IMG/VR virus record: IMGVR_UViG_3300028840_006004
Coordinates: 1 to 64,000 of that record
DNA length: 64,000 nt
Strand: one strand, 5' to 3'
Origin: a virus
This document shows positions 13,064-42,216 of the stretch, piece by piece. Both the position numbers and the translations under genes were made by a program. A model generated the notes under the pieces. It saw nothing but the letters and a program-made list of their open reading frames with translations, was not told the origin of the DNA and searched no databases. Every line of letters starts with the position of its first letter. Position 1 is the first letter of the stretch.

Positions 13064-13068
13064 AAATT

Positions 13069-13360: not shown

Positions 13361-13375
13361 CTAAAAATTTTTGCA

Positions 13376-14575: not shown

Positions 14576-14586
14576 TTTTCAAATTT

Positions 14587-15789: not shown

Positions 15790-15800
15790 GATAATTTATT

Positions 15801-16532: not shown

Positions 16533-16546
16533 GATTTTGATTTTAA

Positions 16547-16933: not shown

Positions 16934-16934
16934 C

Positions 16935-17903
16935 TTATTCAGTATTATCAGTGCAAGTACAATCTTCAATCAGCAAGCCAAGCTTTTTGATCATTAATCC
17001 CATAGTATTGATATATTCATCCCTGAGCGTTTCAGTTGAAACAAGCCCTATTCTTGCAGCCTGATCTACATAAATAGCATCTCTAAGCAACTGATAAGTT
17101 GTTACGAAATGCAATTGTTTATTATAAAGTGGACCAGGACAGTCATCACATTCTACACATTCGCAAAGAACGTTTTTGATGAGATCCAGATAGCATTGCT
17201 CTGCATCAGTAAAATCATAGATTTCTACATAATGAATAGAACGATCGTCAATTGTTAATTCTACATAATATGCTCCATCTTCAGTAAACGTAAACGTCAA
17301 TGTATTTGATGTAGCGCTTCCTGTTTCAACAAGTGCTCCCTGGTAATCACGAACAGTGTAAGAAAGAATATTTCCGCTTCCGTTCCATACTAAAGAAAAT
17401 TGATGATCATCAGTTTTGACCAATGTATAGTCGCCATCAGATGTGACATAGACAGCACGGAAGAAATAATCATTTTTCAGGTCATCAGGATGTGTATTTA
17501 ATTCATCAGTATTGGCATCAGTAATCTGAAGCCATAATGGATTCGATACTGAAGGAATTGTTGCTGTATTTGACAAACATTTCCATACAGCCTCGTCATA
17601 CCAAACGATATCACCAGTATTATATGTTGGCCCTATTGTAAAAATAGGCACACCATACATCCAAATATGATAATCATTGTTGACTGAGCTCAGGAATTTC
17701 TGATCCTCATTCCTGAAATAAACATTGTACGTTCCTGACGCACCCTCTTCTACTACCATACAGTCTACAACCTGCGACCTGTTATAGGTCAAAATTGGCC
17801 AGTCAATTGTACTGGTACCAAGCAAATCTTCATCGAACAGTTGGACATAAGCGCCTTCCTGGGTGATCAAGTGCTGGTATTTTTTAACTTTTGTGAGTGC
17901 CAT
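16935..17903 (-). CDS. Probable tail-associated protein with Cys cluster
   Basis: 322 residues. Residues 1-130 are beta-rich and contain YNTGDIVWYDEAVWKCLSNT, reminiscent of a small carbohydrate-binding (CBM5/12-type) module. An Ig/PKD-like region follows (SNTLTFTFTEDGAYYVELTI). Near residue 245 is a Cys cluster (CECVECDDCPG), and the C-terminus is helical ending CTCTD. First gene after the giant protein; could link fibres to the tail or bind surface glycans. Confidence 0.55.
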   Translation of the reverse strand: MALTKVKKYQHLITQEGAYVQLFDEDLLGTSTIDWPILTYNRSQVVDCMVVEEGASGTYNVYFRNEDQKFLSSVNNDYHIWMYGVPIFTIGPTYNTGDIVWYDEAVWKCLSNTATIPSVSNPLWLQITDANTDELNTHPDDLKNDYFFRAVYVTSDGDYTLVKTDDHQFSLVWNGSGNILSYTVRDYQGALVETGSATSNTLTFTFTEDGAYYVELTIDDRSIHYVEIYDFTDAEQCYLDLIKNVLCECVECDDCPGPLYNKQLHFVTTYQLLRDAIYVDQAARIGLVSTETLRDEYINTMGLMIKKLGLLIEDCTCTDNTE

Positions 17904-17928
17904 AATTTATTTTGTTTGTAAAGATAAT

Positions 17929-20900
17929 TTATTCAAATAGATGTTCTGCTATTGATTCACCGGTTATTATATCGATAGGCTCATCAACCCATTGGTAAGC
18001 CTTTCTTCCTGGAATAAGATTTCTGAGATTTCTATAATCAAGATCTCCATAAGCTGTCGTGAACCCGCGAGTAAGGATACTGGTACCTGCAAGAGGATTA
18101 GTAAGCAATTGGATCACTTGCGGAAGAACCAACAATGAGTTTATCGCAAGTTTAACTGGCTGCATTGGCCTAAGATCTGCTATCGGTATATCATCATCAC
18201 CAACTTTAATATACCTTAATGCAAGGAATATCAAATTCGCTGCGCCAAGGATACTCATAGTAATTCCAAACTTGGCAATATTACGTTTCTGCCATGCATC
18301 CATCTGACTCCATTTCACGCGATCAGGATTTTTCATGTTGCTTACTTGATAAAGAGCCCACTTCCAGAATGTATTTACATACCCTTCTGCGGATAAACGT
18401 TCCCATTTCGGTATATAGTTTCCTTCTTCATCTTTCAAAGGATTTCCTTGCGAGTCTTTCTCTAAAGTAAGCACACCTCCCTGTTGTTTAAATCTGCCAG
18501 GTTTACCAAAAGCATTATGCCACGCTGAAACCAGCCAACGATTCAAGAATAATATTGATTGTCCGAATGCGTAATTCGAAAGAATACTTGCAGTCTTTTT
18601 ATCAAATTCGCCCACGATATACATATCAGAAAGAGCTTTAAACGTATTAGATGATTCAGTGTCATATCCTAATGGTAACGCACCACTGACATCCTCACCA
18701 TCAAGCTGGAGTTTTTTTCGCATTGCTTCTTTCAATGTAGCTCCACCTTCACCTTTCCATCTTTCGTCTTTAGCCTCAGTATAAACCATATCCCCATCAG
18801 AGTTTATACTATGAGCATCATAAGATCCTTCCTTAATCATCTGGGCCACCATTGCAATTAATCTGGATTTGCTATCCACTGTCCAGTTCAAATAATTCGA
18901 CCAGTAATCACTCAAAATTGCTTTATCAAGCTTTTTCCATTTCTGAAAGTGAGCCATATCGAATTCGCTTCGGTTAATAACCCCGTATTCCATTCCTATT
19001 TGCATGATCTTAGCAAATTCATTTTTATTTAATAGTTTCAGGAATGCCTGGTTGACTTCCTTTGGACCAAAATAAGGAGTATTAGCAATTTTATTTGACC
19101 ATGCTTCAATGTAGGTTTTTGTGGTATTCGCTACACCAGAAATAACAGCAACACTTGGATTGATTGCCATTACAATTGGACGAGCAACCATATCAATTGT
19201 TGAGAGTACTTTATCTACGGATACGCCCGCAACTTTCATATTAAGATTTCGTTTACGGCCAAGTACTGATTGCTCAGTAGTCATCTCTATATACTCTTCA
19301 ATTTCTCTCAGCGTTTCTTCTCCCCTTATTTCTCTGCGATGTTCTAACCATAGCTTTACTCCATTGATTATTGGAAGAACGTCTATTTCATACATTGGTG
19401 TGCGAACAGTAGTAAGGATAAGATAATCCATCAAATTTTCAATATCATAAGATAAATTATCATTTGTATCCGCATTTTCCAATATCCATATATTATTCCC
19501 TTCTTTATCGGCTTCGAGTTTTAATCCAAGCAATTCTTCGGTTCTTTGAAGACTACCATATTCGGTAGCAGCCTCAGCATTATAAGTACCGTAAGCTATT
19601 TGACTAAATAACCTGTCTTGAATTTGACGAACCAGTTTTTCATCTTCAAAATTGGCTGCATAATTAGGTGACTCCTCGAATATGGTAGAAATATCACTCA
19701 TTTGAGTAATTTGCTTTTTGGTAGCCCTGTACAACCTTCCTCTCGCAATTTTCTCATCAACTGTACTGTCCATCATTGGAATGAATCCGCGATAAAAAGC
19801 ACTGTTTTCATACAGCTCTTTTTTAGCATCTTCATAAGTAAATTCCTTACCATTCTTCACATCGTAATTATAATTGGAATAGATGTTGTTTCGGTAATGA
19901 AGCACACTCTTAACCATCAGATCCTCTATCTGGTCCACAAGCATTTTACCTACCTCGAGTTCTTCTTTGGTCAGGTTTTTATCCCTGGCTCTTCTTGCAA
20001 GAGCTTTTTCCTGTTCGCTCATAGAATCATCAACAACATCTGTCCAGTATATTGCGCCAGTACGCCATGTCTTTCCATCCTGGGTAATAGTATCGAATAA
20101 TTTTTCGTAATTTTTTTTGGATTTATTCAATGCACTTACAGTAGATATACCAGTAATCTCTTGCCATCTGTCAAGAGCTTTATGCATAATCTTTTTCTGT
20201 TTATCCTGTTCACGAGAAATTTTCTTTTCTGCCTGCAAGATTAATGATTGAATTAGGATCGAATTTTCTTCACCAATATTTTGTACACCATACAGGTAAC
20301 GCTCGATGTTGCCTATCTCCTCATACGGGTTCAATTGACGTGCAGAAATATCAGGAAGCTTCAGTTCAGTAATTGCTCCTCTGAGATAATCAATTTCTTT
20401 CCAGAATTGTGGTGAGCCTTTCATACCTCCCTCTATATATTCATCCACGAGCTGTCGCATACGTTCTGTATAGAGCTTTATCTTTTCGTAAGGCGTGAGC
20501 TCATTTATATTTTTCATTGCATCTGGGAGATTGCCACGGCCTTTTATCTGGTATTCATCCCAAAGAGCCTTCAGATAAATAGCCCAATTGAAAGTAGGGT
20601 CTACTACACCTTTTCTGCTGAAAGATTTTTTAAGTTCATTTCCCAATAATCCTTTGAATGCAGGAATTTTGCCCATCTTTAGTATTTGGGTATTCATGTG
20701 AGTCAGGTTTACCGAATAGAAGTTTTTACGATTCTTCCACAATCTTGCATAACCGGCTTCTCTAACCTTTATACTGGGATCTGCCTTCATTATATGATTT
20801 GCAATCAGAGCCATTTTAATTCCTGATTGATCTGAAGCATTTTTCGAAAGTGATACACCAAGCAATCTCTGATCATTCTTTCCAATTAGCGGTTCAAGTA

Positions 20901-23900
20901 TACCATTATCCTTATTAGATTTTTGAGTCATCGTTTGTTCGAGATCAATTATAGATATTACTCTCTCATTCTGCTCTTCATTATTGTAATCAATAGAAAT
21001 AATGATATTGTCTTCAGCAAATTCTGCTGGTACAATATTGCCAAGTCCCAATTCAGCTTCAAGATCTTTCAGCTTTACATAAACTTTTCCTTCTACCCAG
21101 CCAATCTCATTCAGGAATTTATCAAATGCTGATTTTTGAACAACATTTTTCTTGTCAATCTTTCCGAAAATCCTGTTCAACCATTCTTGCTTATCGGATG
21201 ATGAAAAATATCCCCCAATATCAGATAGTGCCGTTGCAATATTGTTCGTAATCTTTTTGCTACGGTTTTTCATATCCTTATTAAACTTTTTCACTGCAGG
21301 TGAATTAATCGTCAATCCATCAAGATCGAAATTTTCCTTTTTACCAGTATAATAATCCGGAACTTTGCCTTGAAATCTGTTTATCGTGTTCAATGCGTAA
21401 ATCAACTCTCTACGCTCGATTTGTTCAGTACCTTCTTCGAGATCACCATTACTTACAATCCATCTAAGTAAATCTTTTACGGTACGGATCTGGTTAGGCT
21501 TATGTGTGACCATTGCATACATTAACCTGTTCAGGTCAGTAGAAGTTATCTGAGATATGACCTCATTATTATTCATCGCTCTCTGAGCTTTAACAGCGAA
21601 TTCTTTTATGGTGTTATGCGCTATATCTACCGATGGAGCGATTCCGAAAGCATTTTTCAAGACATCCAGGATTGATTTCCAGGCATCACGTAAAAAATTC
21701 TTAATCGCGTTCCATACACCAGTAGCCTGGTTTCTTCCATTACGAATATCCATTGCCTCATATTCAGCTATCAGCTCTTCTTCAGAGTCAATATTCATAT
21801 AAGCCACAATCACCTCTTCTACGATCGCATCATTTTCCAAAAAGCTATGTTTAACTGCTACATATTTAGCAAATGGATCATTATTATCAAGCAATGATAT
21901 CGCTGCTCTACGAAGTCTGTTGTAAGCACCGGGATTGGATTCCCTTAAAAATACCAGGTAAAGGTGTCGTATTTCGTGAGGCTTGGTATCAGGAGTAATC
22001 ATATCACGATTGATATAAACAATCCCTTTATCGATATAAGAAGCTGCACCTGGTATTAGAGTATTGGAATTACTAACCTCTACAACCTTTAGATTAGGGA
22101 ACAATCTCGCAACTTTTGATTTCATACTCGATACCAGGGTAGCAGCTTGTTGTCTGCTAATATTTTCAGCATTTGTAGGATCCGGCATGTGTGTTACATT
22201 CGGAGTTCCATGAGTTTTAGCTTTAGATTCCCTCTTAATTGTTACTGTATTTTTATCAGCATCTACAATTCTTGCGGTTCCTCCATCTATCAGAAAAACA
22301 AGATCTCCCTTGTAAATTCTATTAACTGCAGTTGATTTATTGCGGTCCCTGGCTCTTAAACTTACGCCGTGTTTAAAAATCTTCAAGGTGACCTCTTTTT
22401 CTCCTAATTGTTCAAGCTCTTCCATTGACAGTTTCCTGAATACCGGTATATGGTTATAAGTTTTGATATCAGGATCGCCAGGATATGTATTAATCAGCGG
22501 TGAATAAGGCACATTCAATGGGAAGAACTGGTTATCCACAACCTCTACTGATTCTGGTAACAGATTCTCTGATGATGATTTGAATTGTTTTCCGAATGGA
22601 TTTAATATATATGCCGCTCTTGCATACAATTCACGAGGATCTATTGAATCAAATGGATTAACATCAGCCTCTTCAATCCAATTAGTAAACTGTTGCTCAA
22701 ATTCACTGTCAGTAGCACCACTCATATTTCCATCCTTACGGGTAAACCCATATACAAGTGCATTATATATGCGGAATATCTGTTTATCATCATCTGTCAA
22801 TTTCTGGAATCCATTTTCTTTAAGATCACGAAGTGTTTCCATTGAGGCACCCTCGGATCCTGATAAGTTATATATAGGAATAGGTCCTTTGGATGCTTTT
22901 TTCTTCAGCTTGGAGATAAAACTATTCAGAGGATACTTGCCGATAGCACGGATTTCTTTTACGTAATCCTGCATATCGATAACGAACTGTTGTCTTGCAG
23001 CTGGATCAGATAGCTCGTATGTCTGATCACCCATCCTTACTATTTCAACCTCAGTTGACAGAAATTGTGATATTGCTACGTGCTCTAATTCACTCATAAG
23101 TGAATTGAATGCTTTTTCATTACGCAGTGTGCGTTGTCCGGAAGTTTCAAGAACCTCTTTAAAAAAGTCACTTTGAAATCCTATAATAAATGTTTCGCCA
23201 TAAACCTTCTTTAGGTTTGCTAACACATTAATGTACTGGATAAATTGCGGAGTAGCTTTAATAATTCCTCTCAAATCGAAACCGGTAGCAGTACTTCTGA
23301 TTTCGGCTTCAGCTCCACGATCTTTCTCGAGCTCTTCGTCCGAGATTTTATTCTGTCCGATGTAATTTATCTGTGAGTTAATATCAGGATCTTCACCGGC
23401 AATAAAATCTTCGACTGATTGACCCAGGGCCGATTCTACCTGGTTAATCGTATTGTAAAGTCCCCACTCATTACCATCGATACCTTGTTGTAGCCCTATG
23501 ATTGTATTCATACGGCGGAGTTTCTCTCCGATATAGGCATATTGTAACCATTCCTCATACTGATCTTTCTCTTCTTTAGTGCCTGCTTTTTCAACTTTTT
23601 TTGCTAATCCCTGATCACCTTTCCAAATTGATCTGGATACAAAACCAGTTAACCTGGCTTTATTTGCACTGTTTTCCATTGCTCGGATATCAGGATGATT
23701 AGTAACAGCAACAATTTCTTCCAGTGTTTTTCCCATATAAATCATTCCTGATACTAATGGTGAAGTATATTCAGTAAAGCCAATCTTACCAAGAGCGCCA
23801 CCAAGACTATCGTTATCGGTAGCAGCATTAATCATTTCAGAAACTCTTCCAATCAGTTTAAGAACGTCATCAAATGATACACCTGGATTACGCTCACTTT

Positions 23901-26900
23901 TTCCTCTAACTACAGATCCTTTTGTTGTCAACGTGAATCGTAAATCAGCGGGAATGTGAAGAATCTTTGACAATGCGTTCTGTAAGTTAGCATAGTGACC
24001 GACAAGCTTTTTACCTGCGATCGAACGATCCCTAAGCATTGCAGCCGAATAAAGATCATCCGGATAGTACTGATCAGCTTTTGCTTCTTGATCTGCAAGT
24101 TTCGATACAGTTTCAGTTGTTACTCGTTGAAGAACAGCTTTTACATTTTTTGGTTGATAATAATAATCCCACATGGCATTAAAAATGGTAGCCCTATGTT
24201 CATACAATCTTTGCTTATCAGTTGCCACCTCTTCGCCTGTTTCAGGATCTTCAATAGCTTCTTCGCCTCCCAAGTCTTGAAATAATGGTTTATGAAATGT
24301 ATGAAGTTCATCGATATCATAGTCAGAACCATCCAGGATATTTTTCTCTGGTGATGTGAATATAGTATTGTCATATCCATAAGAGAATTCAACAATCCTT
24401 GAAGGAAACCCGGACGAAGCATTCGTTGTCGGAATTCTTACGGTAAACACATCCATTGCGTGATTCAACTGAGAGAAATATTTTGCTATTTGATAGATAA
24501 CTTTTTTGCGATCACCTTCATCAACAACATTCGGAGCTTTTTTCTTAATATACCTAATGATATCTGGATCCAAGTTTTCAGGATTAAGGATTTTATCAGT
24601 GTCCCATCCTTCATAAAAACTGGTAAGAATTTCAGCTTCACGTTGAGATGAATTATGAATCATCTGGCTGATATCAGTCCTGCGATTCTTATATCCTTTT
24701 GCAGTTCTTATGGTAAATAATTTAGATGCAGATTTTCCTGTAGAAATACCAAACTTATGCTGATGTACGAATGGCATGATTACTTCCTGAGGAGTAACAT
24801 ATATTTTTAATCCTAAAGTGGAATCTTTCAAGAGCTCTTCCCGGCTTTCGTATGGAACCAGGGTATTACCTTCTTTTTTCCAAAACTTGATCGGATTAAG
24901 TGAACGCTTAATGTACCCTCTTTCTTTCCAGTCTGTTGGTTGATTGCCTTCAGTATAAAGCTTACCTTTTCTTGTAGCATATATAGCCTCACGATAAGGC
25001 ACTTGCACAAGTGCAGATCCCGGAAGAGTAGGTTTCAAATATTTATTGGAATCAGAAGCGAGTGTAGAAACAGCTTTTCTTCTCCAGACATCCAGTGTGA
25101 TTTCACCATCATTGATGATTTCAGCCATCTTGCTGGATTCATTTGTTCTTGACACATTCTTTGCTGCTTTGGCCCTGATATATTGTGAGGCAAGCGTTCC
25201 AAGTTTTTCATAAAACTTGGCACCGTCTTCAGCAATATTTGATAAAGCTTTATTTAGGATAGCTACACGTTCAGTATTATGCTCACCAACTCCAATTATA
25301 TACAACTCCTGTGTAGGGATTTGTTTTTGGTTGTCAAACACGAAGTTTCCTGTATAAAGCTGCAATCGTAAACTGTCGGCATCGAGAATGTCAACTTCTT
25401 TATCGTTGTTCCATTCTGGTTTGAATAATCCATCCTGGAGATAATGCACTTTTTCAGTTCCGTTTTTCATAGCCAGGTCAAAATTGATCCAGCCAATCAT
25501 ATTATTCATCGCTGCAGAAAATTCACCATCAGAACGACCAAGTTCATCATATATTTCATCTGCTAAGCGGTGAATATGAAATTCAAATTTTTCTTCAGAC
25601 TCAAGCATCTCATCTGTCCACTCAGAACCTAAAAATGTTTTCATCATTGACAGATAGAAAGGATCGCTCATTTTATCGAATTGAGGAGCGAACATAGACA
25701 TCTTTAACTGCTTAACTTTATCTTCAGTGATTTTATATCCGTAATAAATCGTTTTCTGAGATGATCGTGTTACAGGTCCCATCTCATATCCTTTGCTTCT
25801 CCTCATTAATTCGAGCAAAACCGGGTTCAACGGAACTAATCCATCTGTTGCTGCGGTCAATACATAATCCTTTTCATCCTGGCGAGTTGTTTTCTCAACT
25901 GTTTCAGAGAAAATCTTATTAAACATAACGGGATCCACTGTGGTCAATGAGCGAATTTTCTTGCCCATATATCTTCTGGAAAATGTTTTTCCGATAGCAT
26001 CAAATCCCTTACCCCTCTTAACGTAATCGGACAAATCATTAAAGTTCTCAACTCCACCCCTGATATTCTGATTAAGTGTCTTATTGAATATATGGTGATT
26101 CCAAAATAGGACTTTAGCCATGTTTAATGCATCAGTACTCTTATTCAAATTATCAGAAAAAAGAAGGTCACGGATTTCCGCAATGTGAGGGTAATATTTC
26201 TCATTAAAATCGTTTTTTCCTTTGTCAGATTTCAGTCTTGCTATATCAATATCGTACTCAGCTTTAATTGTCTGATAAATTTTAATAGCATCACTACGCT
26301 GGATGGTATTGTTTTTATATCCTGATACCATTTTTGCGAGAGAATCGTAAGTACGTTTTCTTCCTTTAATTTTGCTAAGTTCAGAGAGAGCTTTATTAAT
26401 ACTGTTGAATTTTTTAGTCGAAAGCATTTCGCTGGCTTCTTCACCTATAATAGCTTCACTATCTCCTACAAATACATCACCAAGCCATTTCTCAAACGCA
26501 AGTACACGATCAGCAAATGCAGACTCAATTACTTTCATCATACCAGCAACGTCACCTTTAGCCATCATCGATCTCCATTGAGCGAGATTTATTTTGGTAT
26601 ACGGACTGTATTCCTGGCTGTAACCATTACCGATAACATAATTATCACCTTGCTTTTTATAATCCCTAAACTTAACCAGAGCAAACTCCAGATCCATTGC
26701 TTTCCGAGTCTTGATATTCTTAACCTTATCTTCCCAAATCGGGATTGTTCCGTTTTCATCAAGACCGGTAGCCTTTTTCCAGTTTTTCAGCGTAAGCTCT
26801 TTCTGTTTATGATCATGCTCGACAAAATCGTTTAGTATATTGACAAGCTGAGCCTCGTCAATTTCCAATATTTTCAAATTTCTTTTACGATCAAGCTGGC

Positions 26901-29900: not shown

Positions 29901-32900
29901 CGCCAATAGTATTGGTTGTCAAATATTCGACATTAACCTTCTTGCTATCATCATCGCGAACAATAACTGGGTAATAAAAGCGTAAAGGCCGTGACCTTCC
30001 TGCAATCTTTGTTGTTGCGGTAAGATTTCCATTCTGATCAGCATAACGATTCTCAATCGCCTTAATAATATGCGGAACAGCTGCCTTGAGATTCAGGAGC
30101 CTTTGTTTATAGGTACCTCCTTTAACCTGAATATTTTTATAAGTTACCCCGCTTTTAGAGGTAACTTCTTTTGTTTTGAAAAAACGCTCAAGATTAGGAT
30201 CGGAAGCTATCATGGACGTAGCCATTTCTGAATTTGCATCCATCCATCTCGAGATTAACGATTCTCTTACAATACCATCCTGAGCACGTTTTGTTAACGC
30301 TTTAAATTCAGGATTATCTTCGATATCCTCATTCCACATTTCCTCTATTTCCTGGACCAAAGCATCATATTTTTTCAACTCTTGAGTAGCGCCGGTAAAG
30401 AAAGATTTAATCACATCGATATCGCTCTCATTCGATTTTGGTGCTCTTTTCATTGGAGCAGCATCAAATATTACATCCACAATATTACCATCTGGATCTT
30501 TGAAACTGATCAGGATATTAAACCTGCCTCCTCGTTTGTCCCTGCTATATTTCAACGGAGTAATAAATCCTTCATCATCGAGATCTTGAACTAAGCTAAA
30601 ACCATCATTTTGCATCTGTTCTAACAGACCGATAAAAGACATACGTTGCGCTCTGGAAGGCATCAGAAGATTTTTTTCAATCGTAACTTTCGTACCAGTA
30701 GTTCCCGGTGTTTGATTATTGTGAGCTTTATGAACCTGAACAAACTTGGCCACATTCATATCGATAGTATTCTCCAGTAATTCCTGGTTTTTAATTGACT
30801 TAGCAAAACTATCTTCCAAATATGCATAAACAGCTTGCTTTGCATCTTTAAATGGCATTCCTAACCATTTATTGAACTCAGGAACTTTAGACAGCCAGTT
30901 GTCAGAGAATTTTTTATCCTTATTATTAGGAACACGAGCCTCAGCCGGTGTATCGATACCAACGAAATCAAGGCCGAGCTCTTTCATTTGTTTTTTACTG
31001 ATACCAATTTCTTTTGCTACAAAATCTAATTGTTCTTCAGTAAAGCGTATTTCAAATACGTTATTATAGATCTCACCTTCATAGGACCTGGTGCTACGAT
31101 TTGGTACAGTATAAACTGCGCTTACACGATAAATCTTGTCCAGGACTGACATCTTAGCCGGAAGTTTAGTGATCGCATCCAGTGATTTTAATTTCAGATC
31201 GAACCATTTATTTTTCTTACGATTAAACATATTGGCACCTGAACCCATTTTCTTTTTCCACTCAGCCTCATTAAAATCAGGACTGGATTGTGGAGCAAGC
31301 ATGTGTGTAACATAGATCGTGCGATCTGTTTTATATTCAATTGCACTACGCTCACGAATAAGTTCCGGAGTTCCTTCGACAGGATTCCAGATATTATGTG
31401 TTAAATAACTTTGCGGAACTGTAATTATTTCTCCCGTTACCTGGTTTTCAAGATTAGCAATTAATCCGTTTTTATCAAGCAGAAGATCTCTAACAAAATA
31501 AGCTTCGCCCGTTTCTTTTTCTACAATAGGATCAGAGGTAAATATATCTACACCATCTCCAAGATGAGCAACATCGATTTTGCGTTTTAAGGCAAAGAGA
31601 ACGGTAGGATCCGCAATACGAAATTCAGTTCTTTTTAATCCAATTGCTTTGGCAACATCTTCAATAGGAACATCAGTTGATTCAACTTGATCAACAAAAT
31701 ATTCTGCTGGTAAATCACTTTTCTCAATTTCTATCCAGGATTTACTATCAGCGATATTAACGTTGTACACATTGTTAACAATCCATCCTTTTTCTTCAGC
31801 AATGAACCGGTAGGTGTGGGCCAATGCTTGACCGTACTTATTCAGTTCTCTCGGGTGGAGTGTATAAGTTCGTGTAAATATGTCTACGATAGGATTTCCA
31901 TTTTCATCATAACCGACAGTTTTGATCATATATGGACTTCCTTGAATATCCAGATCTTTTGGTTTAATATTTGGACGATGGACGCTGAATTCATTATAAC
32001 CCATAGTTTCTGCTACTTCTTGGGCAACAGCGATCATTCTACGCTTAAAACCATTAACCCTTCCGTTCCATCTTGCGGTTCCTTTACCCTGATTCTCTTT
32101 ATCAGCATCTTTCTCTTCCTTGTTCATTGGACGATACTTTCTGATTAAAGAATCGAGCAGGTTTTCAATTGATTCAACTTCATCTTCTTTCGCTATCACG
32201 CGCTGGAAAGCAACATCAAATATTGCTCGGCGTTCTTTAAGTTGTTTATTCTCGAGAATTTGGCTTTCAGTTTTTTCCTGCTTATCCTGTAACCATTGAG
32301 CAGCTATGTCAGAAGCGTGACGGAAACCGGGATATGTTTTTGTTTCAGTTGTTTTCTTGAATGCAGCTTCAGCATCATCAATATTATAACCACCATCTCC
32401 AAAATACATCTGCGAATCAACCTTATACAGGTCATCAAGTTTCGCTTTCTTTTTACCCTTACGTTTCTTTTTCTTCTTCTTTTTATCAGTGCCTTCTTCT
32501 TCGTCAGTAACTTCTTTTTCCTCAGTTCCAACGATTTCAAAATATGCAGCACGTTCCATTCGCTGTGCTGTTAAGCGGGCGAGCACATCCTCATCAGTTT
32601 CTATTGTTGTGGAATATCCACTGATAGGAGTATTGTCAGTAACTTTTCCTGAAATCTCAGGATTACCAAACATTTCAACATATTGTGAAGCGCGGGATAC
32701 AGCAGTAAGCATAATTGCTACAGCGTCACCTTCTCTGCCACCACTTTCAGGTAATGCAAAAAGACCGGCATCGCCTTCAAGCATTGAAGCCATATCAAAT
32801 GGAATGAATACCTGGTCAGCTTTCAATCCTGAAGCATTATACTTAAATCGTTTTGAATCCTGGCGGATCTTCTTAGCATCATATTCAAGAGTGAATATTT

Positions 32901-35900
32901 TATCTTTATGCATTCCAAGCCTGTCACCATACTTATCAATTAGCTGTTCCATATTTGCATAAGTAGGAACCAAAAGCATTTGTGTTTTACCGGTTTCATT
33001 TGCTTCAGCAAATTCAACTTGATCTAAAAAGTTTTGTACAATCTGATCAAGTCCCTCTGTCCTTTTAATATATCGAACACCGACATTACCATCAGGAGAT
33101 GTTTTCCATTTAGTTTCGGTAGTTCCGATAGCTTCATCAATTTGTTCAGTAGTTACTCCAAGAGCCCTGCGATATCCTTCCTGTAATGCACGGATATAAA
33201 TAATTCCTGTACGGAAAATCTGATTCAACGCATTTGTTTTCTCACCAAAATTATCAACAGGATATAATGCATGTGAGTTGTTTAAACTCTTTACCTGGCC
33301 TTCATCACCGAGAATAACTACACGTTTTTTATGTTCACGTTGCCATGATCTGAGTAAATTTCCTTCTTCTTTAGCATTTTCTTCAACTGGATCCGGAGCA
33401 GGAATGGTTGACCCTTCTTCATAAATAATGATATCAGCATCCTTATAAAGATCCTCATTATTTACCAGATCGTGTGCCGGGATAAAAACAGGATTAATTG
33501 TAGCTTCGGAACCTATTTCTGAAAGCCGTGTATTGATTTCTTCAACAGCATCACTATGAATTTTTTCTACTCCTTTTGTAGGAATAATGTAGAGTACATC
33601 AATAGCTTTGTTTTCCAGCGCTGCATAATATAACAAAGCATTCTTCGCTACCATTGCGCTTTTACCACTACCTGCATAACCACGTACAAATAGGGTATGA
33701 TCGATAAGCATTTCCCTGGTTCCTTCAGGATAGTTCCAGTCTTCTTTATCCTGGGACTGCATGAAAGCAACAACATCAACAATAGCATCCAGTTGCTCGA
33801 ATGTTTCCAGGTCGTCATTATTAGCTTTTGTAAGATTATTCAAGTTGAGCTTCTCAGCCTGAGCAAGCATCTGTCTTCTGGTATTGGTCTTTCCATTACC
33901 AAGTGAATTTGCTACTGATAAGAATTGGAAATAGCTAAAAGTATAGAGCGAATATTCATATTCTTCCTGTCTGAATTTTTGTTCCTGAATATATTCAGAA
34001 GCGCTTTTCTTTCCGCCTTCTTTTTTATAATCAGAGAAAGATTTCCATACAACTCTACCGTCATCATATTTTCTAACCGAAGCAAGTCCATCGTATGTCC
34101 CGGAAGACATATTGTATACAGGCTCATCGGCAATCTCGGTGCTTATGTAAGGAAGTTCATTATTGGAAGTTTTTTTAACATGCTCAATAAAACCACCAAG
34201 TTTACCCGAGAAAATCTCTTCGATGTCCATTAGCTCTTTATCAATTAAAGCAATAGCGGCTTTTACACTATTTTTTTCAGGAGATTTTCCATCTGACGTA
34301 TAAATGCTATTGTAATAGAGAGGGTATAATTGTTCCGGATAAACATGATCATTGTCAGCATTTTCAACATCAGAAGTGGTTTTGTACTTACTGATTGTCT
34401 TTTTTATGATTTCACTGATCTTTCTGCTTTTGTTGGTGACAGTAGCAATATCGTCCTTTGTGAGTTTATGTTTAATGTCATCGTTACCCGCATCGATAGC
34501 AACAGATCTCATGTGATGAAGCATCCTGGACTGGTTTCCAAGTTTAACTTTCACGCTTTCACGTTCAGTACTTGCTGACTCCAGCCGTTTATCCATCTTC
34601 CACGAATCATTGATCACTTTCTTGAACCGCTTAACGAATTCATCGATGAACTGACGTTCTTCTCCAAATGGATCCAATCGCCATTTTGAATTATCGTCTT
34701 GGTGATAAATCGAGTGCTCGTTGCCTTGACCTGAAGGTAATTTCTCAATATGATTCTGGGTAACATCTACCATTAATTCCATCATTGTGGTAATTGTATC
34801 CAGTAATTGATCAGCAATATCAAGTTTATTAATCCACTCTGCTCCATTGTCGATCGGGAGATTTGGATTTCCGAATACAATCTGAGCGTCATTGATGATA
34901 TCAGCAATGGAGGTTTCAGCTCCATTTGATAATGTGAATTTATTATTCAGCATTCCCAGTAAAAGTCCCAGCTTATATGTACCGATCTTTGCATCACGGA
35001 AAGCCTGCGATCTGCCATCCTCATCAATTTCAAATAGATCCTTGATAGTTTGAGGCGCATTACGAAGCATTTCTCTTAAATGTTCCTGCATAACAACTTC
35101 AGGCATCGCATCAATTGTACCCTCATATTTAGCCAGTATACCGGCATCACGCTTAGTATTGAATTGTTCGACATCAGCTACTCTCTGAGCAAGATCACCT
35201 TCATCTACAATATCATCACCTATTCCTGTTTCAACAGGTTTTCCTTCGATAACTTCAACTGCATTATCATAAATCAGATTCATTATTTCGACAGCTCTCT
35301 TACCCTGCTCAAGCGCACCGGTAAATACGCCAACAGCGGTTTCATCATAGAGCATCGCTTTTACATTGCCGAATACCTTAACAGCATTTTCGATATACTT
35401 ATTGATTTCAGTATTCAAACGCTGTCCCTTCTTAATCATTTGTCTGCCATATTCCCCTCTGGCAATAACTTCATTGATAGCATCCACTATCCCAAGACCA
35501 GTTTTCTTTGGAAATAATACTGCTGGTTTTCCTTCGCCTTCTTCAATTGTTGTTGCAACTTCACGACCAGCTGTTTCGGAAACACCTGCCTCTTCCTGAA
35601 TTCTAATTTCCTCTTCCCATTCTGCTATCTGAGCATCGAGCCCTTCATCCTTGCTTCCACGTTTTTTCCTGGCTTTCATATCAGCCAGTTCTTTACGTAA
35701 TACTGTCAATGGTTTTGCAACCTTAGCTGCAGCTTTTCCTTTTTTAGGAGGCTGTTCCAAGACTTCTTCAAAGTCAAATGTTTCACCCTCGATCCTTGCC
35801 ATTTCAGCAAGCGGTGACTGTAGGTCAAGATTTTCCAGATTACTTTCCTGCGCCCTGGAATTGTGAGCATCAATTACTGACTGAAGACCATTCGGTCCCC

Positions 35901-38361
35901 ATTCTTTAAGAGCTTTGGTCAGCATTTCCCATACAGGATATATTTTACGATCATTCAACGCCTCGAGTATTACCTGGCTGGTTGAATTTTTGATCTTTTT
36001 CATTTCCTTTTGGTAGGCATCTACTGGAACAACATCACCATAACGTTCCTCGATATTCTTCTTGGCTTTTTCAGAGATCAGTACATCAACTGCATACAGA
36101 CCGTTCATTTTTTCAGTGAATACTTGAGAGGTAGTAACCTCAACACCATCAACTACATTGGTCTTTTTTTCTGTAAGCATTTTCTCATAAGCATCATTAC
36201 GTTCAATCCAGGCTTGAATTTCCTTTTCGTCAGTAATACGCTTAACACCTATTTTATCCCATTCAGCATTAAGAGCCTGCTCTCTCGCTTCAGGTTCTAA
36301 TTGCTCATTATCCATAATCGCCAAAATCCCTTTAAGGGATTTGGTTGTTTCTTTTGTCTGTAAAAGGTCGAACAGAAAAGATTTATCACCTCCGAGTGTT
36401 TTTATTAACTCAGGATTATCCAGATTATGTTCATTGATTGCGGCAACATAATATTCAAGATCTTGACGGAAACCTACTTTAACATCATCTCCGACATTTT
36501 TTTCGAGATGGCCCATCTTAACCCAGCTGTCCACCATACCATCAATTTTATCGAATACGGTAGGATCATCTTTGGCTCTCATAGCAAGATCCATCATCTG
36601 TTGTCCCTGGCGATTTTGACCTGCAGTAATATTATGAGCGATACCCATAGTAAAAGTAGATGATAGAAACGCAATAGCAGGCTCCTCCCAACTGAAACTC
36701 TCATCAAGCGTTCTGGATCCATCGAGGATACCTTTAGAAAATTCGATTTGACGCTCAATTTTCCTCTTCTCTTTCTCGTTCACACGATCAATTGTAATAC
36801 CATTGGAATTCTTCATGGCATAATCACCACCAGGTAGCGGATCGAATGTAGCACCTCCATTCTTACGGAGATTATTTTTAGCCATATTCCTTTCAATAGC
36901 ATTAAAAAGCGAAGCGAAAGTCATGTGACCTACACCCTCAGCTGCCTCTTCAAAACCTTCTTCAACACCTGCGCCTACAGCTTTGCCTGCTCCTTTAAGC
37001 AATCCTTTTCCCGCAGCCATCTTATGAAAGTTCCTTCTCAAAGCTCCAGTATATTTATTGGCCCAGAATCCTTTTGCCGGCATTTCTAATGCTTCAGCTT
37101 CAGCTAATCCTTTTACCATTCCTCCGGACACATCCTCGATTACTTCGGCTGCAGAAACTCTACTGAGATTATTAAATATTCTCTGTCCTTGCTTCACACC
37201 AAATCTTTGTACAAGGTTAGCTGAGATAATATTTTCTGAACCGTGAGTAATAAGTCCGAACATTAATCCCATTGCTTCAGCCTCCTGGGCTGAGTATCCT
37301 TTTCTGACAAGATCATTACGTGTAAGATCATATACTGTAAGAGATCCTATACTGATTGACATTTGAGTAGCAAGTTTGGTTCCGACACCAGCTGCGCCCA
37401 GGGAGAAACCTGATGCGATCATCGGTAAGAATTGACCAACTCCGTCCCAAAATGAATACAATATTGAATTGGCATTATCAAACACACCTACAGCTTCGTC
37501 ATAATTTTGACGTTGCATTGCTGAGGCTGCATTTGACCATTGGTTCGCAAGATCATTTAATTGACTTGCGTTGACCGCTTCTGTATAAGAACGATCTGTA
37601 CCGACCATCAAAGCCGGTGCTGCAACAGCATTAAGTACATGGAGTAATCCACCTCCAGCCTGAACAGTTTTTCCTACTGCGCCAGAAATAGTACCTCGAG
37701 ATGCAGATCCTAACCAGGTAGAGTTTAGCTCCCGCGCTCCTCCTACCCATTCATAAGGTTTAATCTTAGCAGGATCCCCGAGCTCACCATCCTTGAGCTC
37801 CCGATAAACCCATGTATTTAGTTTTTCATCCCACTCATTCTGAAGTTTATTTGTGTTGGAACGTTTGTCGTATTCCTCTAATGGAAGAAGAATACCATTA
37901 CGATCATAATAAAGCTCATTCTTTTCAGCGATCTGATCCTGATGTTCTATGATTACTGGTTGTTCAAGTCCAAGAAAATTGGCATAATTGGAAGGGCCTG
38001 TATTAATCCAGGATTCATCTTTATCGAACCATTTTAACTGGCCTTTCTCAGCCTCGGTTCCACCACCCGTATCATAAGTGCCTTCATAATCATAAAGATT
38101 CCACCTGCGGTTTTTATAAATATCAAATTCCGCCTGCGCATGACCATAAGCAAATTTAAGATCTTCTTCAGGTATTTCCTTATCGGTTTTTGACTGCATT
38201 AAGGTAGAGAATTCCTCGTATGATTCGAGCTCTACCGGTAAATTGAAGTTTTTTTCTGCCTGGTAGATTGCTGTCAAGTCATGTTCCTGCATACGCGATT
38301 GGACATAATTGATCGCTGTTGGCTGCCTACCCTGGCCGTCACTTCCTGCTAATTTTGTCAT
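17929..38361 (-). CDS. Giant 6810-residue multi-enzyme virion protein (helicase, zinc-protease-like, RNA polymerase)
   Basis: One uninterrupted frame of 20.4 kb, about 0.75 MDa at 110 Da per residue. Its ATG overlaps the upstream stop by four bases. Regions in order: (1) 1-560, N-terminal segment with Ala/Gly-rich hydrophobic stretches, as in ejection proteins; (2) about 1555-1900, SF1 helicase with GYAGSGKS (1561-1568), DIIIYEEGS (near 1642), VILGDEGQ (near 1683) and TAVSRAS (near 1887); (3) a Lys-rich linker near 1955-1970; (4) HESLH (2937-2941), an HExxH zinc-protease motif, with EYLAEKF following; (5) a two-barrel RNA polymerase with PGSALVQVP (near 4444), SDYDID (4679-4684) and AGKKLVGHYAN (near 4779); (6) HEIRH (5462-5466), a second HExxH, with Glu-rich helix after it; (7) a C-terminal part with two hydrophobic segments near 6700-6740. 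Matches the virion RNA polymerases of crAss-like phages and the polyvalent-protein concept. Most of the chain has no recognised domain. Confidence 0.9.
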   Translation of the reverse strand: MTKLAGSDGQGRQPTAINYVQSRMQEHDLTAIYQAEKNFNLPVELESYEEFSTLMQSKTDKEIPEEDLKFAYGHAQAEFDIYKNRRWNLYDYEGTYDTGGGTEAEKGQLKWFDKDESWINTGPSNYANFLGLEQPVIIEHQDQIAEKNELYYDRNGILLPLEEYDKRSNTNKLQNEWDEKLNTWVYRELKDGELGDPAKIKPYEWVGGARELNSTWLGSASRGTISGAVGKTVQAGGGLLHVLNAVAAPALMVGTDRSYTEAVNASQLNDLANQWSNAASAMQRQNYDEAVGVFDNANSILYSFWDGVGQFLPMIASGFSLGAAGVGTKLATQMSISIGSLTVYDLTRNDLVRKGYSAQEAEAMGLMFGLITHGSENIISANLVQRFGVKQGQRIFNNLSRVSAAEVIEDVSGGMVKGLAEAEALEMPAKGFWANKYTGALRRNFHKMAAGKGLLKGAGKAVGAGVEEGFEEAAEGVGHMTFASLFNAIERNMAKNNLRKNGGATFDPLPGGDYAMKNSNGITIDRVNEKEKRKIERQIEFSKGILDGSRTLDESFSWEEPAIAFLSSTFTMGIAHNITAGQNRQGQQMMDLAMRAKDDPTVFDKIDGMVDSWVKMGHLEKNVGDDVKVGFRQDLEYYVAAINEHNLDNPELIKTLGGDKSFLFDLLQTKETTKSLKGILAIMDNEQLEPEAREQALNAEWDKIGVKRITDEKEIQAWIERNDAYEKMLTEKKTNVVDGVEVTTSQVFTEKMNGLYAVDVLISEKAKKNIEERYGDVVPVDAYQKEMKKIKNSTSQVILEALNDRKIYPVWEMLTKALKEWGPNGLQSVIDAHNSRAQESNLENLDLQSPLAEMARIEGETFDFEEVLEQPPKKGKAAAKVAKPLTVLRKELADMKARKKRGSKDEGLDAQIAEWEEEIRIQEEAGVSETAGREVATTIEEGEGKPAVLFPKKTGLGIVDAINEVIARGEYGRQMIKKGQRLNTEINKYIENAVKVFGNVKAMLYDETAVGVFTGALEQGKRAVEIMNLIYDNAVEVIEGKPVETGIGDDIVDEGDLAQRVADVEQFNTKRDAGILAKYEGTIDAMPEVVMQEHLREMLRNAPQTIKDLFEIDEDGRSQAFRDAKIGTYKLGLLLGMLNNKFTLSNGAETSIADIINDAQIVFGNPNLPIDNGAEWINKLDIADQLLDTITTMMELMVDVTQNHIEKLPSGQGNEHSIYHQDDNSKWRLDPFGEERQFIDEFVKRFKKVINDSWKMDKRLESASTERESVKVKLGNQSRMLHHMRSVAIDAGNDDIKHKLTKDDIATVTNKSRKISEIIKKTISKYKTTSDVENADNDHVYPEQLYPLYYNSIYTSDGKSPEKNSVKAAIALIDKELMDIEEIFSGKLGGFIEHVKKTSNNELPYISTEIADEPVYNMSSGTYDGLASVRKYDDGRVVWKSFSDYKKEGGKKSASEYIQEQKFRQEEYEYSLYTFSYFQFLSVANSLGNGKTNTRRQMLAQAEKLNLNNLTKANNDDLETFEQLDAIVDVVAFMQSQDKEDWNYPEGTREMLIDHTLFVRGYAGSGKSAMVAKNALLYYAALENKAIDVLYIIPTKGVEKIHSDAVEEINTRLSEIGSEATINPVFIPAHDLVNNEDLYKDADIIIYEEGSTIPAPDPVEENAKEEGNLLRSWQREHKKRVVILGDEGQVKSLNNSHALYPVDNFGEKTNALNQIFRTGIIYIRALQEGYRRALGVTTEQIDEAIGTTETKWKTSPDGNVGVRYIKRTEGLDQIVQNFLDQVEFAEANETGKTQMLLVPTYANMEQLIDKYGDRLGMHKDKIFTLEYDAKKIRQDSKRFKYNASGLKADQVFIPFDMASMLEGDAGLFALPESGGREGDAVAIMLTAVSRASQYVEMFGNPEISGKVTDNTPISGYSTTIETDEDVLARLTAQRMERAAYFEIVGTEEKEVTDEEEGTDKKKKKKKRKGKKKAKLDDLYKVDSQMYFGDGGYNIDDAEAAFKKTTETKTYPGFRHASDIAAQWLQDKQEKTESQILENKQLKERRAIFDVAFQRVIAKEDEVESIENLLDSLIRKYRPMNKEEKDADKENQGKGTARWNGRVNGFKRRMIAVAQEVAETMGYNEFSVHRPNIKPKDLDIQGSPYMIKTVGYDENGNPIVDIFTRTYTLHPRELNKYGQALAHTYRFIAEEKGWIVNNVYNVNIADSKSWIEIEKSDLPAEYFVDQVESTDVPIEDVAKAIGLKRTEFRIADPTVLFALKRKIDVAHLGDGVDIFTSDPIVEKETGEAYFVRDLLLDKNGLIANLENQVTGEIITVPQSYLTHNIWNPVEGTPELIRERSAIEYKTDRTIYVTHMLAPQSSPDFNEAEWKKKMGSGANMFNRKKNKWFDLKLKSLDAITKLPAKMSVLDKIYRVSAVYTVPNRSTRSYEGEIYNNVFEIRFTEEQLDFVAKEIGISKKQMKELGLDFVGIDTPAEARVPNNKDKKFSDNWLSKVPEFNKWLGMPFKDAKQAVYAYLEDSFAKSIKNQELLENTIDMNVAKFVQVHKAHNNQTPGTTGTKVTIEKNLLMPSRAQRMSFIGLLEQMQNDGFSLVQDLDDEGFITPLKYSRDKRGGRFNILISFKDPDGNIVDVIFDAAPMKRAPKSNESDIDVIKSFFTGATQELKKYDALVQEIEEMWNEDIEDNPEFKALTKRAQDGIVRESLISRWMDANSEMATSMIASDPNLERFFKTKEVTSKSGVTYKNIQVKGGTYKQRLLNLKAAVPHIIKAIENRYADQNGNLTATTKIAGRSRPLRFYYPVIVRDDDSKKVNVEYLTTNTIGVNQSVARSKSANIGPKPKDAKTGQEDIGQTSDNDNPFQTGFKKYGKKWVPGQTTYISKEAALQRIAQLIGSENAQKYLGFEDGLIIYKGTAHWGIVKNGLMKIAQISKGIEGTTPDHESLHFVIEYLMGDKQRISLINAAKKELPAGATYGDAHEYLAEKFEYENYRPTTYIGRVLLQIKKWLYSKFKLFSSDIQTILAQVDDGYFANNEYKIPSNPEAIIFPKVADIENEFNTDIVRKQKTFLFGSNENIDFWAERNIAPMIFSFYGIGKSVSAKEKFAGVHSFQSAVQKVYQTLMEYHDYYMSRREAGKVFRYFDGSEIIEGEEKPYVVYGEIPNSVYIAVSKTMRELKNKSLSIYKDVEQASYAENKKLIDAYIIQELTRPASKQATNPAGKTIFYNLVQTIFGNVDMTKTTKSGDPFFTLEGNIIADKEQESPSKNVSSFLTAMFNSTRLREYRLTANGVSDDFYGDDNYMDAYLMLDELFKASERLVSRGRDVNIDTILESIREKRDNIAPGKVRRNLHTFLVEFGGEIANSTKLNKQAPLEDTTNLATPMGTISGVGYYYLEKNLEAFIEDYFDKFDAPSSYTEQLIAKAYNFKKVSALIESATRGIMNMRRVKISRAGRYSNITEYGNEVATMIHGDLRDGIQNKFYQGRSGSVSQSVIDDFTGENPNIRIDGTGLYMNIDGQMRQLISLDTSKPVVGYEETESLNNYAKQVLQYITDDSSITADIAEAIILNQGKEFRIPNYARDIYVMYLALYSAVLNTQDFNETGDLQNEEIVWTKSEKTKAIDAQLEKIYKVYPNDFQLSDPAREDGIQLFSPVDAHRFIRNNIAYQMANVESQSRDKVQMMDDGTIKQSRETTTNLYEYFLTDGENGASDEYVNNMIQEAERIAQESSVEVPGVSMIRGKVTWRDPLMNRKVFIQPLGTNDSIAMGNRVIMANDMSAYEYIRSMFILTKDEFAKKKDVNWFPVFAEMIGDKGKIPFTKIKYGENPLFKGQLDRKRNLKILEIDEAQLVNILNDFVEHDHKQKELTLKNWKKATGLDENGTIPIWEDKVKNIKTRKAMDLEFALVKFRDYKKQGDNYVIGNGYSQEYSPYTKINLAQWRSMMAKGDVAGMMKVIESAFADRVLAFEKWLGDVFVGDSEAIIGEEASEMLSTKKFNSINKALSELSKIKGRKRTYDSLAKMVSGYKNNTIQRSDAIKIYQTIKAEYDIDIARLKSDKGKNDFNEKYYPHIAEIRDLLFSDNLNKSTDALNMAKVLFWNHHIFNKTLNQNIRGGVENFNDLSDYVKRGKGFDAIGKTFSRRYMGKKIRSLTTVDPVMFNKIFSETVEKTTRQDEKDYVLTAATDGLVPLNPVLLELMRRSKGYEMGPVTRSSQKTIYYGYKITEDKVKQLKMSMFAPQFDKMSDPFYLSMMKTFLGSEWTDEMLESEEKFEFHIHRLADEIYDELGRSDGEFSAAMNNMIGWINFDLAMKNGTEKVHYLQDGLFKPEWNNDKEVDILDADSLRLQLYTGNFVFDNQKQIPTQELYIIGVGEHNTERVAILNKALSNIAEDGAKFYEKLGTLASQYIRAKAAKNVSRTNESSKMAEIINDGEITLDVWRRKAVSTLASDSNKYLKPTLPGSALVQVPYREAIYATRKGKLYTEGNQPTDWKERGYIKRSLNPIKFWKKEGNTLVPYESREELLKDSTLGLKIYVTPQEVIMPFVHQHKFGISTGKSASKLFTIRTAKGYKNRRTDISQMIHNSSQREAEILTSFYEGWDTDKILNPENLDPDIIRYIKKKAPNVVDEGDRKKVIYQIAKYFSQLNHAMDVFTVRIPTTNASSGFPSRIVEFSYGYDNTIFTSPEKNILDGSDYDIDELHTFHKPLFQDLGGEEAIEDPETGEEVATDKQRLYEHRATIFNAMWDYYYQPKNVKAVLQRVTTETVSKLADQEAKADQYYPDDLYSAAMLRDRSIAGKKLVGHYANLQNALSKILHIPADLRFTLTTKGSVVRGKSERNPGVSFDDVLKLIGRVSEMINAATDNDSLGGALGKIGFTEYTSPLVSGMIYMGKTLEEIVAVTNHPDIRAMENSANKARLTGFVSRSIWKGDQGLAKKVEKAGTKEEKDQYEEWLQYAYIGEKLRRMNTIIGLQQGIDGNEWGLYNTINQVESALGQSVEDFIAGEDPDINSQINYIGQNKISDEELEKDRGAEAEIRSTATGFDLRGIIKATPQFIQYINVLANLKKVYGETFIIGFQSDFFKEVLETSGQRTLRNEKAFNSLMSELEHVAISQFLSTEVEIVRMGDQTYELSDPAARQQFVIDMQDYVKEIRAIGKYPLNSFISKLKKKASKGPIPIYNLSGSEGASMETLRDLKENGFQKLTDDDKQIFRIYNALVYGFTRKDGNMSGATDSEFEQQFTNWIEEADVNPFDSIDPRELYARAAYILNPFGKQFKSSSENLLPESVEVVDNQFFPLNVPYSPLINTYPGDPDIKTYNHIPVFRKLSMEELEQLGEKEVTLKIFKHGVSLRARDRNKSTAVNRIYKGDLVFLIDGGTARIVDADKNTVTIKRESKAKTHGTPNVTHMPDPTNAENISRQQAATLVSSMKSKVARLFPNLKVVEVSNSNTLIPGAASYIDKGIVYINRDMITPDTKPHEIRHLYLVFLRESNPGAYNRLRRAAISLLDNNDPFAKYVAVKHSFLENDAIVEEVIVAYMNIDSEEELIAEYEAMDIRNGRNQATGVWNAIKNFLRDAWKSILDVLKNAFGIAPSVDIAHNTIKEFAVKAQRAMNNNEVISQITSTDLNRLMYAMVTHKPNQIRTVKDLLRWIVSNGDLEEGTEQIERRELIYALNTINRFQGKVPDYYTGKKENFDLDGLTINSPAVKKFNKDMKNRSKKITNNIATALSDIGGYFSSSDKQEWLNRIFGKIDKKNVVQKSAFDKFLNEIGWVEGKVYVKLKDLEAELGLGNIVPAEFAEDNIIISIDYNNEEQNERVISIIDLEQTMTQKSNKDNGILEPLIGKNDQRLLGVSLSKNASDQSGIKMALIANHIMKADPSIKVREAGYARLWKNRKNFYSVNLTHMNTQILKMGKIPAFKGLLGNELKKSFSRKGVVDPTFNWAIYLKALWDEYQIKGRGNLPDAMKNINELTPYEKIKLYTERMRQLVDEYIEGGMKGSPQFWKEIDYLRGAITELKLPDISARQLNPYEEIGNIERYLYGVQNIGEENSILIQSLILQAEKKISREQDKQKKIMHKALDRWQEITGISTVSALNKSKKNYEKLFDTITQDGKTWRTGAIYWTDVVDDSMSEQEKALARRARDKNLTKEELEVGKMLVDQIEDLMVKSVLHYRNNIYSNYNYDVKNGKEFTYEDAKKELYENSAFYRGFIPMMDSTVDEKIARGRLYRATKKQITQMSDISTIFEESPNYAANFEDEKLVRQIQDRLFSQIAYGTYNAEAATEYGSLQRTEELLGLKLEADKEGNNIWILENADTNDNLSYDIENLMDYLILTTVRTPMYEIDVLPIINGVKLWLEHRREIRGEETLREIEEYIEMTTEQSVLGRKRNLNMKVAGVSVDKVLSTIDMVARPIVMAINPSVAVISGVANTTKTYIEAWSNKIANTPYFGPKEVNQAFLKLLNKNEFAKIMQIGMEYGVINRSEFDMAHFQKWKKLDKAILSDYWSNYLNWTVDSKSRLIAMVAQMIKEGSYDAHSINSDGDMVYTEAKDERWKGEGGATLKEAMRKKLQLDGEDVSGALPLGYDTESSNTFKALSDMYIVGEFDKKTASILSNYAFGQSILFLNRWLVSAWHNAFGKPGRFKQQGGVLTLEKDSQGNPLKDEEGNYIPKWERLSAEGYVNTFWKWALYQVSNMKNPDRVKWSQMDAWQKRNIAKFGITMSILGAANLIFLALRYIKVGDDDIPIADLRPMQPVKLAINSLLVLPQVIQLLTNPLAGTSILTRGFTTAYGDLDYRNLRNLIPGRKAYQWVDEPIDIITGESIAEHLFE

Positions 38362-41892: not shown

Positions 41893-42216
41893 TTATGCTG
41901 TTTCTTCTTCTACAAGCTCTTCATCAGGTTCAGGTTCTTTAACCTGCTTGGTTCCCATATTCATTAATCCACCAAGAGCAACGGTGAATTGTCCAGTTCC
42001 CATTAAACCTCTTTTGAGCTTTTCGTTTTCATCAATTATGTTACTATGAACCTGTTCGTTTAATGAAGCAACCTGGTTGCCGAACAGACCTGCATTTCTC
42101 AACGATATCGGATCTGGAGAGAATGTTTTGTGCGTTTCGGTTACATTCTTAGTACCAATCGCTCCAGCAGCTATTTCTGCAGCTGTTCCTACTGCCTGTG
42201 TTATTAATCCTATCAT
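41893..42216 (-). CDS. Small late protein with hydrophobic N-terminus
   Basis: 107 residues. The first 22 (MIGLITQAVGTAAEIAAGAI) form a hydrophobic Ala/Gly helix that could insert in a membrane. An acidic tail (KEPEPDEELVEEE) ends it. The start overlaps the nozzle gene's stop by four bases (ATGA). Likely a minor ejection or tail-tip component. Confidence 0.55.
   Translation of the reverse strand: MIGLITQAVGTAAEIAAGAIGTKNVTETHKTFSPDPISLRNAGLFGNQVASLNEQVHSNIIDENEKLKRGLMGTGQFTVALGGLMNMGTKQVKEPEPDEELVEEETA

Follow-up and report, generated by a model that had tools for sequence, protein, structure and literature searches.

INTRODUCTION

The closest described counterparts of the locus studied here are the cargo proteins of Crassvirales phages. 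In crAss001, gp47, gp49 and gp50 were identified as virion proteins by mass spectrometry, and their storage in the capsid and ejection through the tail were modelled (PMC10172136). Similarly, gp76, gp77 and gp78 of phi14:2 are virion proteins by mass spectrometry according to their record notes; gp77 is the protein of PDB 6VR4, a DNA-dependent RNA polymerase (RNAP), and a passage of PMC7886860, citing Drobysheva et al., states that the phi14:2 RNAP transcribes early genes. A review describes Crassvirales RNAP proteins of 'up to ~6000 aa' (PMC10136315). For fusions of a virion RNAP (vRNAP) to a giant virion protein, a coupling of DNA entry and transcription has been proposed, crAss-like phages included (PMC10770324).

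Here, we analysed a giant gene in bases 1-64000 of the virus record IMGVR_UViG_3300028840_006004 (this whole stretch is called the window). From profile comparisons, we consider it likely that the gene represents the Crassvirales cargo trio A-B-C fused into one, with an SF1 helicase inserted in A, in an uncultured environmental crAss-like clade. By homology, part A is assigned the N-terminal region and a first zincin-like domain, part B the two-barrel RNAP, and part C a second zincin-like domain and the C-terminal domain. Within the open-licence literature searched, the new features are the inserted helicase and the completeness of the fusion, with all parts in one chain, while the zincin-like sites flanking the polymerase and the long RNAP proteins are already known and old in Crassvirales.

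RESULTS AND DISCUSSION

The giant gene and its genomic setting

The open reading frame (17929..38361, minus strand) begins with ATG and runs over 6810 codons without an internal stop; at its base composition, the chance of a frame of this length is ~10^-203. The initial annotation had claimed an unbroken frame with SF1 helicase motifs, one GSDYDID and two HExxH sites, and all of these were indeed found in the 6810-aa ORF. The gene occupies 22% of a 92,626-bp genome, which is taken to be complete because a 144-bp direct repeat is common to both record ends. It was also suggested that the product may be among the largest phage proteins; for all its size, it is exceeded by proteins of up to 7,694 aa described in huge phages (PMC7162821).

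The terminase, portal and major head protein could each be assigned to PHROGs families, and from TerL through portal, MCP and muzzle to cargo the genes are ordered as in crAss phages, with the structural block upstream of the giant gene. The muzzle/stabilisation-type tail protein (1550 aa; 42213..46865, minus strand) is crAss001 gp44-like (hhalign prob 94.8, E 5e-8). The gene directly upstream (849 aa; 38358..40907, minus strand) lies at the position of the crAss cargo genes gp45/46, and its product showed no detectable similarity to gp45/46; its stop codon is overlapped by the start of the giant ORF by four bases (ATGA). An endolysin-like gene is located inside the tail block (46862-47827, minus strand). 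Elsewhere in the window, two adjoining tail-fibre-like genes (13376-15789, minus strand) have N-termini that match the same PHROG (8309) and are probably paralogues sharing an anchor. On the plus strand, a C-5 cytosine methyltransferase (7513-8958), an adjoining HTH/PAPS-reductase protein (8924-9949) and a nearby ParB-like protein (4719-5537) may form a DNA modification cluster. Two proteins with YadA head-repeat matches are encoded just outside the window (genome 64533-68378; L002 4533-6047 and 6840-8378).

The terminase large subunit (58392..60485, minus strand) is of Crassvirales type by its PHROGs match, its 23-28% identity to Crassvirales terminases and its place in a quick tree. In this tree, a split with full SH-aLRT support divides 51 environmental rows from the seven named Crassvirales (Suoliviridae, Steigviridae); a single further environmental row falls on the side of the latter. 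The tree is midpoint-rooted with long Steigviridae branches and does not fix the exact position of the clade. Judged by its terminase, the phage belongs to a clade of uncultured environmental phages that lies next to the named families of Crassvirales. Members of this clade occur in genome bins labelled Bacteroidales, Bacteroidetes, Neomarinimicrobiota and Bacillus, and because bins can be contaminated, these labels point no more than weakly to Bacteroidota as hosts.

Conservation of the frame in environmental relatives

Is the unbroken frame shared by related phages? Environmental relatives were picked by their terminase similarity to the window phage, the terminase alignment gathering 80 contigs of uncultured relatives, so that the counts given here are not shares among all crAss-like phages. 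With residues 2601-5600 as query, we found homologues in nine contigs; seven were read out as single ORFs of 6685, 6585, 6603, 6690, 6790, 6381 and 6369 aa, one of at least 5733 aa was ended by the contig edge, and one was split (see below). Two more contigs contain full frames of 6627 and 6663 aa. Full single frames of 6369-6790 aa with the same domain order are thus present in nine relatives, and Walker A, HExxH, DxDxD and the second HExxH recur at similar places. The overall identity among the giant homologues is only 17-30%, which points to an old, fast-evolving family. In a motif alignment of the window and 16 other rows, a few contigs being represented more than once, the Walker A Lys, the motif III Asp/Gln, the motif VI Arg and the Asp triad of DxDxD were invariant in every covering row, as were the H, E and H of the second HExxH and its later Glu.

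These relatives bear directly on whether adjacent genes were joined by an assembly error that removed stop codons, which the initial annotation had named as grounds against its own reading. In related phages this region does comprise two or three genes, and in one relative (G001, L137) the frame is split between RNAP and zincin 2 into ORFs of 5301 and 2695 aa (contig 12288-28193 and 4188-12275), the second of which has two HExxH sites; the split point lies at about the position of a cr1_1 gene boundary. However, the homologous frame is uninterrupted in nine other, independent contigs, and we therefore reject mis-assembly as practically impossible.

Correspondence with Crassvirales cargo proteins

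In a tblastn search against 50,697 phage records, the giant protein had no match below E 0.1; the matches at E 0.1 lay in crAss proteins, at their zincin 1 and DxDxD sites, and provided the first lead. Pfam and PHROGs gave no family above the cut-off for the window giant protein alone, and scans of viral contigs with the single-protein RNAP or helicase region as query returned no match. A profile of the clade was then compared with one of eight crAss-like phages, whose cargo proteins had been joined in order. In this profile-profile comparison, in which, as in hmmsearch, E-values refer to very small target sets, residues 193-488 aligned with cr1_1 175-472 (E 1e-4), 2877-3028 with 1940-2100 (E 2e-11), 4085-4359 with 2877-3190 (E 4e-8), 4530-4898 with 3319-3802 (E 5e-15), 4834-5224 with 3740-4151 (E 4e-8), 5445-5557 with 5051-5167 (E 9e-4) and 6330-6763 with 6087-6500 (E 6e-16). 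The co-linear blocks thus span residues 193 to 6763, all in order. Column-shuffled controls scored far lower for all blocks but zincin 2, which exceeded them by a modest margin (38.9 vs 22.5). Clade-only profiles in hmmsearch matched the corresponding crAss proteins at the same sites, i.e. zincin 1, RNAP, zincin 2 and the C-terminus.

The conserved N-terminal region (residues 193-488; 36898..37785, minus strand) is Gly/Ala-rich and hydrophobic, aligns co-linearly with the N-terminal end of crAss protein A (hhalign score 44 vs a shuffled maximum of 13) and is possibly membrane-active. At the other end, the conserved domain at residues 6330-6763 (18073..19374, minus strand) aligns with the C-terminal end of crAss protein C, its profile matches phi14:2 gp76 (hmmsearch, 3.8e-10), and it contains a hydrophobic helix at 6695-6713.

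In order, A, B and C are equivalent to gp47, gp50 and gp49 of crAss001 and to gp78, gp77 and gp76 of phi14:2. The match to residues up to ~5224 is encoded by one or two genes in crAss phages, and that from 5445 on by another. In Suoliviridae, RNAP proteins of 4.5-5.8 kaa are accompanied by a partner of 1.5-2.1 kaa, and the order HExxH-RNAP-HExxH is the same in most. The earlier view that a crAss-like vRNAP is usually a shorter, separate protein needs correction as to length, as long RNAP proteins are normal in Crassvirales. In this light, the separate virion cargo proteins of crAss phages are parts of one conserved A-B-C module, with the order and relation of its parts given, which a whole lineage makes as one chain.

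The predicted two-barrel RNA polymerase

Profile homology places the two-barrel RNAP core at residues 4301-5000 (23362..25461, minus strand), with DPBB-B at ~4430-4560 and DPBB-A at ~4630-4720, positions likewise assigned via homology. The single RNAP site is GSDYDID, in which the predicted catalytic DYDID (residues 4680-4684; 24310..24324, minus strand) carries the Asp triad 4680/4682/4684 and aligns with DFDID/DFDVD of crAss phages. A bare DxDxD is expected ~2 times by chance in the giant protein, so that the motif is meaningful only because it is conserved.

The assignment as a crAss-like virion RNAP, made initially from the motif, is well supported by the profiles. The RNAP profile matched cr130_1 (6.7e-20) and crAss001 gp50 (2.3e-11) and recovered crAss RNAP genes in whole genomes; a clade-only profile reached 7.8e-19 to crAss RNAP by plain hmmsearch; and the profile-profile comparison with the phi14:2 region gave E 3.5e-15 and a score of 136 (highest shuffled score, 23). 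Each of the two barrel regions aligns with phi14:2, the first of them weakly. An N4-type polymerase was considered and rejected: there was no T7-like RNAP match in Pfam, and by homology the RNAP belongs to the two-barrel type of crAss phages.

Structure prediction contributed less. The AlphaFold model of residues 4400-5595, comprising RNAP and zincin 2, was poor (pLDDT 55, pTM 0.36); its fold search against the PDB found no match, and in a viral library it matched crAss-like proteins with E-values down to 1e-7 among the named records, at TM-scores of only 0.2-0.3. The RNAP and zincin profiles had no true match among PDB sequences. The double barrels expected at 4440-4780 are therefore supported by profile homology to phi14:2, but not by a confident model.

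The zincin-like domains

The two zinc-protease-like sites noted at the outset are both present in the one chain. Zincin-like domain 1 (residues 2851-3040; 29242..29811, minus strand) contains HESLH at 2937-2941 and Glu 2975, and domain 2 (residues 5380-5700; 21262..22224, minus strand) contains HEIRH at 5462-5466 and Glu 5516. At the composition of the giant protein, HExxH is expected 0.08 times by chance and is seen twice, and the downstream Glu, at +38 and +54 in the window, is conserved at both sites, which is a gluzincin signature. The zincin 1 profile (A6) matched crAss A proteins, among them cr112_A (6.5e-17), cr1_1 (3e-12) and crAss001 gp47 (2.8e-10), and the zincin 2 profile (A5) matched phi14:2 gp76 (1e-7) and, weakly, the cr1_1 C protein (0.004) at the HExxH. 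In AlphaFold (AF2) models, zincin 1 (overall pLDDT 40) formed only two local helices, around HExxH and Glu (pLDDT ~60-77), and zincin 2 a local strand-strand-strand-HExxH helix-Glu helix arrangement (pLDDT ~60-80). Neither both zincins searched against PDB sequences nor the model of RNAP and zincin 2 searched against PDB folds gave a credible peptidase match, the models being weak.

Ahead of the RNAP, HEA(F/Y/W)H sits in one and the same alignment column in crAss001 gp47, cr112, cr1_1, cr10_1, cr60_1, cr273_1 and cr130_1, and a second HExxH follows the RNAP in cr1_1, cr273_1, cr130_1 and phi14:2 gp76. The HExxH sites flanking the polymerase are thus widespread Crassvirales features with a predicted peptidase role only. 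Among the environmental relatives, G009, G012 and G011 (L126, L128 and L134) have lost the first HExxH while the second is kept in every covering row, and the two sites therefore probably have different jobs, the catalysis of zincin 1 being dispensable in some relatives. A weak likeness of the two sites in profile comparison suggests a duplication.

Do the zincins serve to cut the fused chain? The giant protein could be a polyprotein from which its zincins release A, B and C before or during packaging; the virion would then contain the three proteins found in other crAss phages and the fusion would set stoichiometry only. Two signatures HExxH...Glu flank the RNAP, zincin peptidases have been proposed to process polyvalent phage proteins (PMC5512222), and the homologues are separate genes with about the same junctions in other crAss phages. 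However, the zincins are retained in crAss phages whose parts are already separate genes, so that processing of a fusion is not their only job; the ORF is still fused in the three relatives in which zincin 1 has lost its catalytic motif; and the N4 vRNAP, which bears an HExxH too, is described as a ~3,500-residue virion protein (PMC12633501). Such a complete dissection of the chain appears rather unlikely to us.

The SF1 helicase

The SF1 (RecD/AAA_30-like) helicase core is assigned to residues 1520-1960 (32482..33804, minus strand). On the same strand follow Walker A, GYAGSGKS (1561-1568; 33658..33681), motif II or Walker B, YEEGS (1647-1651; 33409..33423), motif III, GDEGQ (1685-1689; 33295..33309), and motif VI, LTAVSRAS (1885-1892; 32686..32709). 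The SF1 set of Q-motif, Walker A, DE (EE in the window), GDxxQ and motif VI Arg is present. A Walker A of this form is expected 0.02 times by chance in the giant protein. Nine of the ten members of the helicase profile (A4) matched AAA_30 (best 1.5e-13), and the profile matched RecD in the PDB (2.5e-5). Motif II is EE in the window, G006 and G010, and DE in most relatives; because the Walker B Asp is replaced by Glu, activity of the window helicase is not certain. The SF1 motifs claimed initially thus hold for the conserved Walker A, III and VI, with the reservation of the EE at Walker B.

No match to the helicase profile was found in any of seven complete reference crAss genomes, the hhalign score of the helicase against the crAss cargo profile (13) was within the shuffled null, and the clade-only helicase profile had no hmmsearch match in crAss proteins. 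The interval from the N-terminal block to zincin 1 measures 2,389 residues here vs 1,468 in cr1_1, which leaves room for an inserted module. By these comparisons, the helicase is special to the environmental clade and inserted into part A.

What would such a helicase do? Every environmental contig covering both has helicase and RNAP in the same open frame, amounting to 14 lineages with near-copies merged. The phage has separate DnaB-type and DEAD/ResIII helicases (genome 77345-78625 and 82498-83994; L003 3345-4625 and 8498-9994), which makes the one in the giant protein its third. A partnership of helicase and polymerase seems possible to us, and we propose it tentatively. Alternatively, the helicase could be a counter-defence or host-takeover module directed at the nucleic acid of the host or inhibiting its nucleases. 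Polyvalent phage proteins often join SNF2 ATPases, methyltransferases and zincins (PMC5512222), and with the two separate helicases, replication would not need that of the giant protein. This reading nevertheless seems rather unlikely, since the helicase is kept in the RNAP chain in all 14 lineages. Defence modules usually turn over fast.

Proposed mechanism

Based on the homology to virion cargo, the early transcription by the phi14:2 RNAP, the coupling proposed for vRNAP fusions and the HExxH of N4-type polymerases, the most likely reading is that the giant protein acts as an ejected entry-and-early-transcription machine. By analogy with the homologous cargo proteins, it would be packaged in the capsid, ejected with or ahead of the DNA and so delivered into the host together with it. 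Its hydrophobic N- and C-terminal parts may aid docking at, or crossing of, the membrane. The RNA polymerase part would transcribe early genes, while the helicase, on the polymerase's own chain, would open or translocate the entering DNA for it. The zincins may cut their own chain (junctions at ~3100 and ~5225-5445) or a host target, at maturation or after entry. The single ejected unit and the protein processing proposed in the initial annotation are likewise inferences, and the chain may be cleaved before packaging or afterwards. We speculate, with some doubt, that an entire family-level clade of environmental crAss-like phages delivers its components for entry, an SF1 helicase that opens the template and a two-barrel RNAP as one ~6,800-residue chain, with an obligate coupling between helicase and polymerase. 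The clade-restricted helicase raises the idea that such polymerases are aided in opening or pulling in double-stranded DNA.

Comparison with known systems

The N4-like (Schitoviridae) vRNAP is likewise a giant ejected RNAP chain; an HExxH domain follows the polymerase, and the C-terminal part is large and helical (PMC12633501, PMC5512222), but its polymerase is T7-like, its length ~3,500 aa, and a helicase is not reported in these two papers. In P23-45, a two-barrel vRNAP forms part of a fusion with a giant virion protein of 5,002 aa (PMC10770324); there, the fusion is to a siphovirus tape measure and the polymerase is N-terminal. Polyvalent proteins of phages and conjugative elements also combine many enzymatic domains per injected chain, with zincins as hubs (PMC5512222). 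Indeed, the giant protein unites unrelated enzymatic domains, a zincin included, in one polypeptide as they do, but its base is Crassvirales RNAP cargo; an SF1 helicase with a two-barrel RNAP is not described in PMC5512222, the text of which contains neither 'SF1' nor 'crAss'.

The closest resemblance is to the Crassvirales cargo of phi14:2, crAss001 and Suoliviridae. It comprises chain-long homology, domain order, the DxDxD site, the position after the tail module, and the HExxH before the RNAP (absent from phi14:2 gp78) and after it (absent from crAss001 gp49). At ordinary tblastn cut-offs these proteins show no similarity to the giant protein, and it differs from them in being a single ORF with an SF1 helicase in part A.
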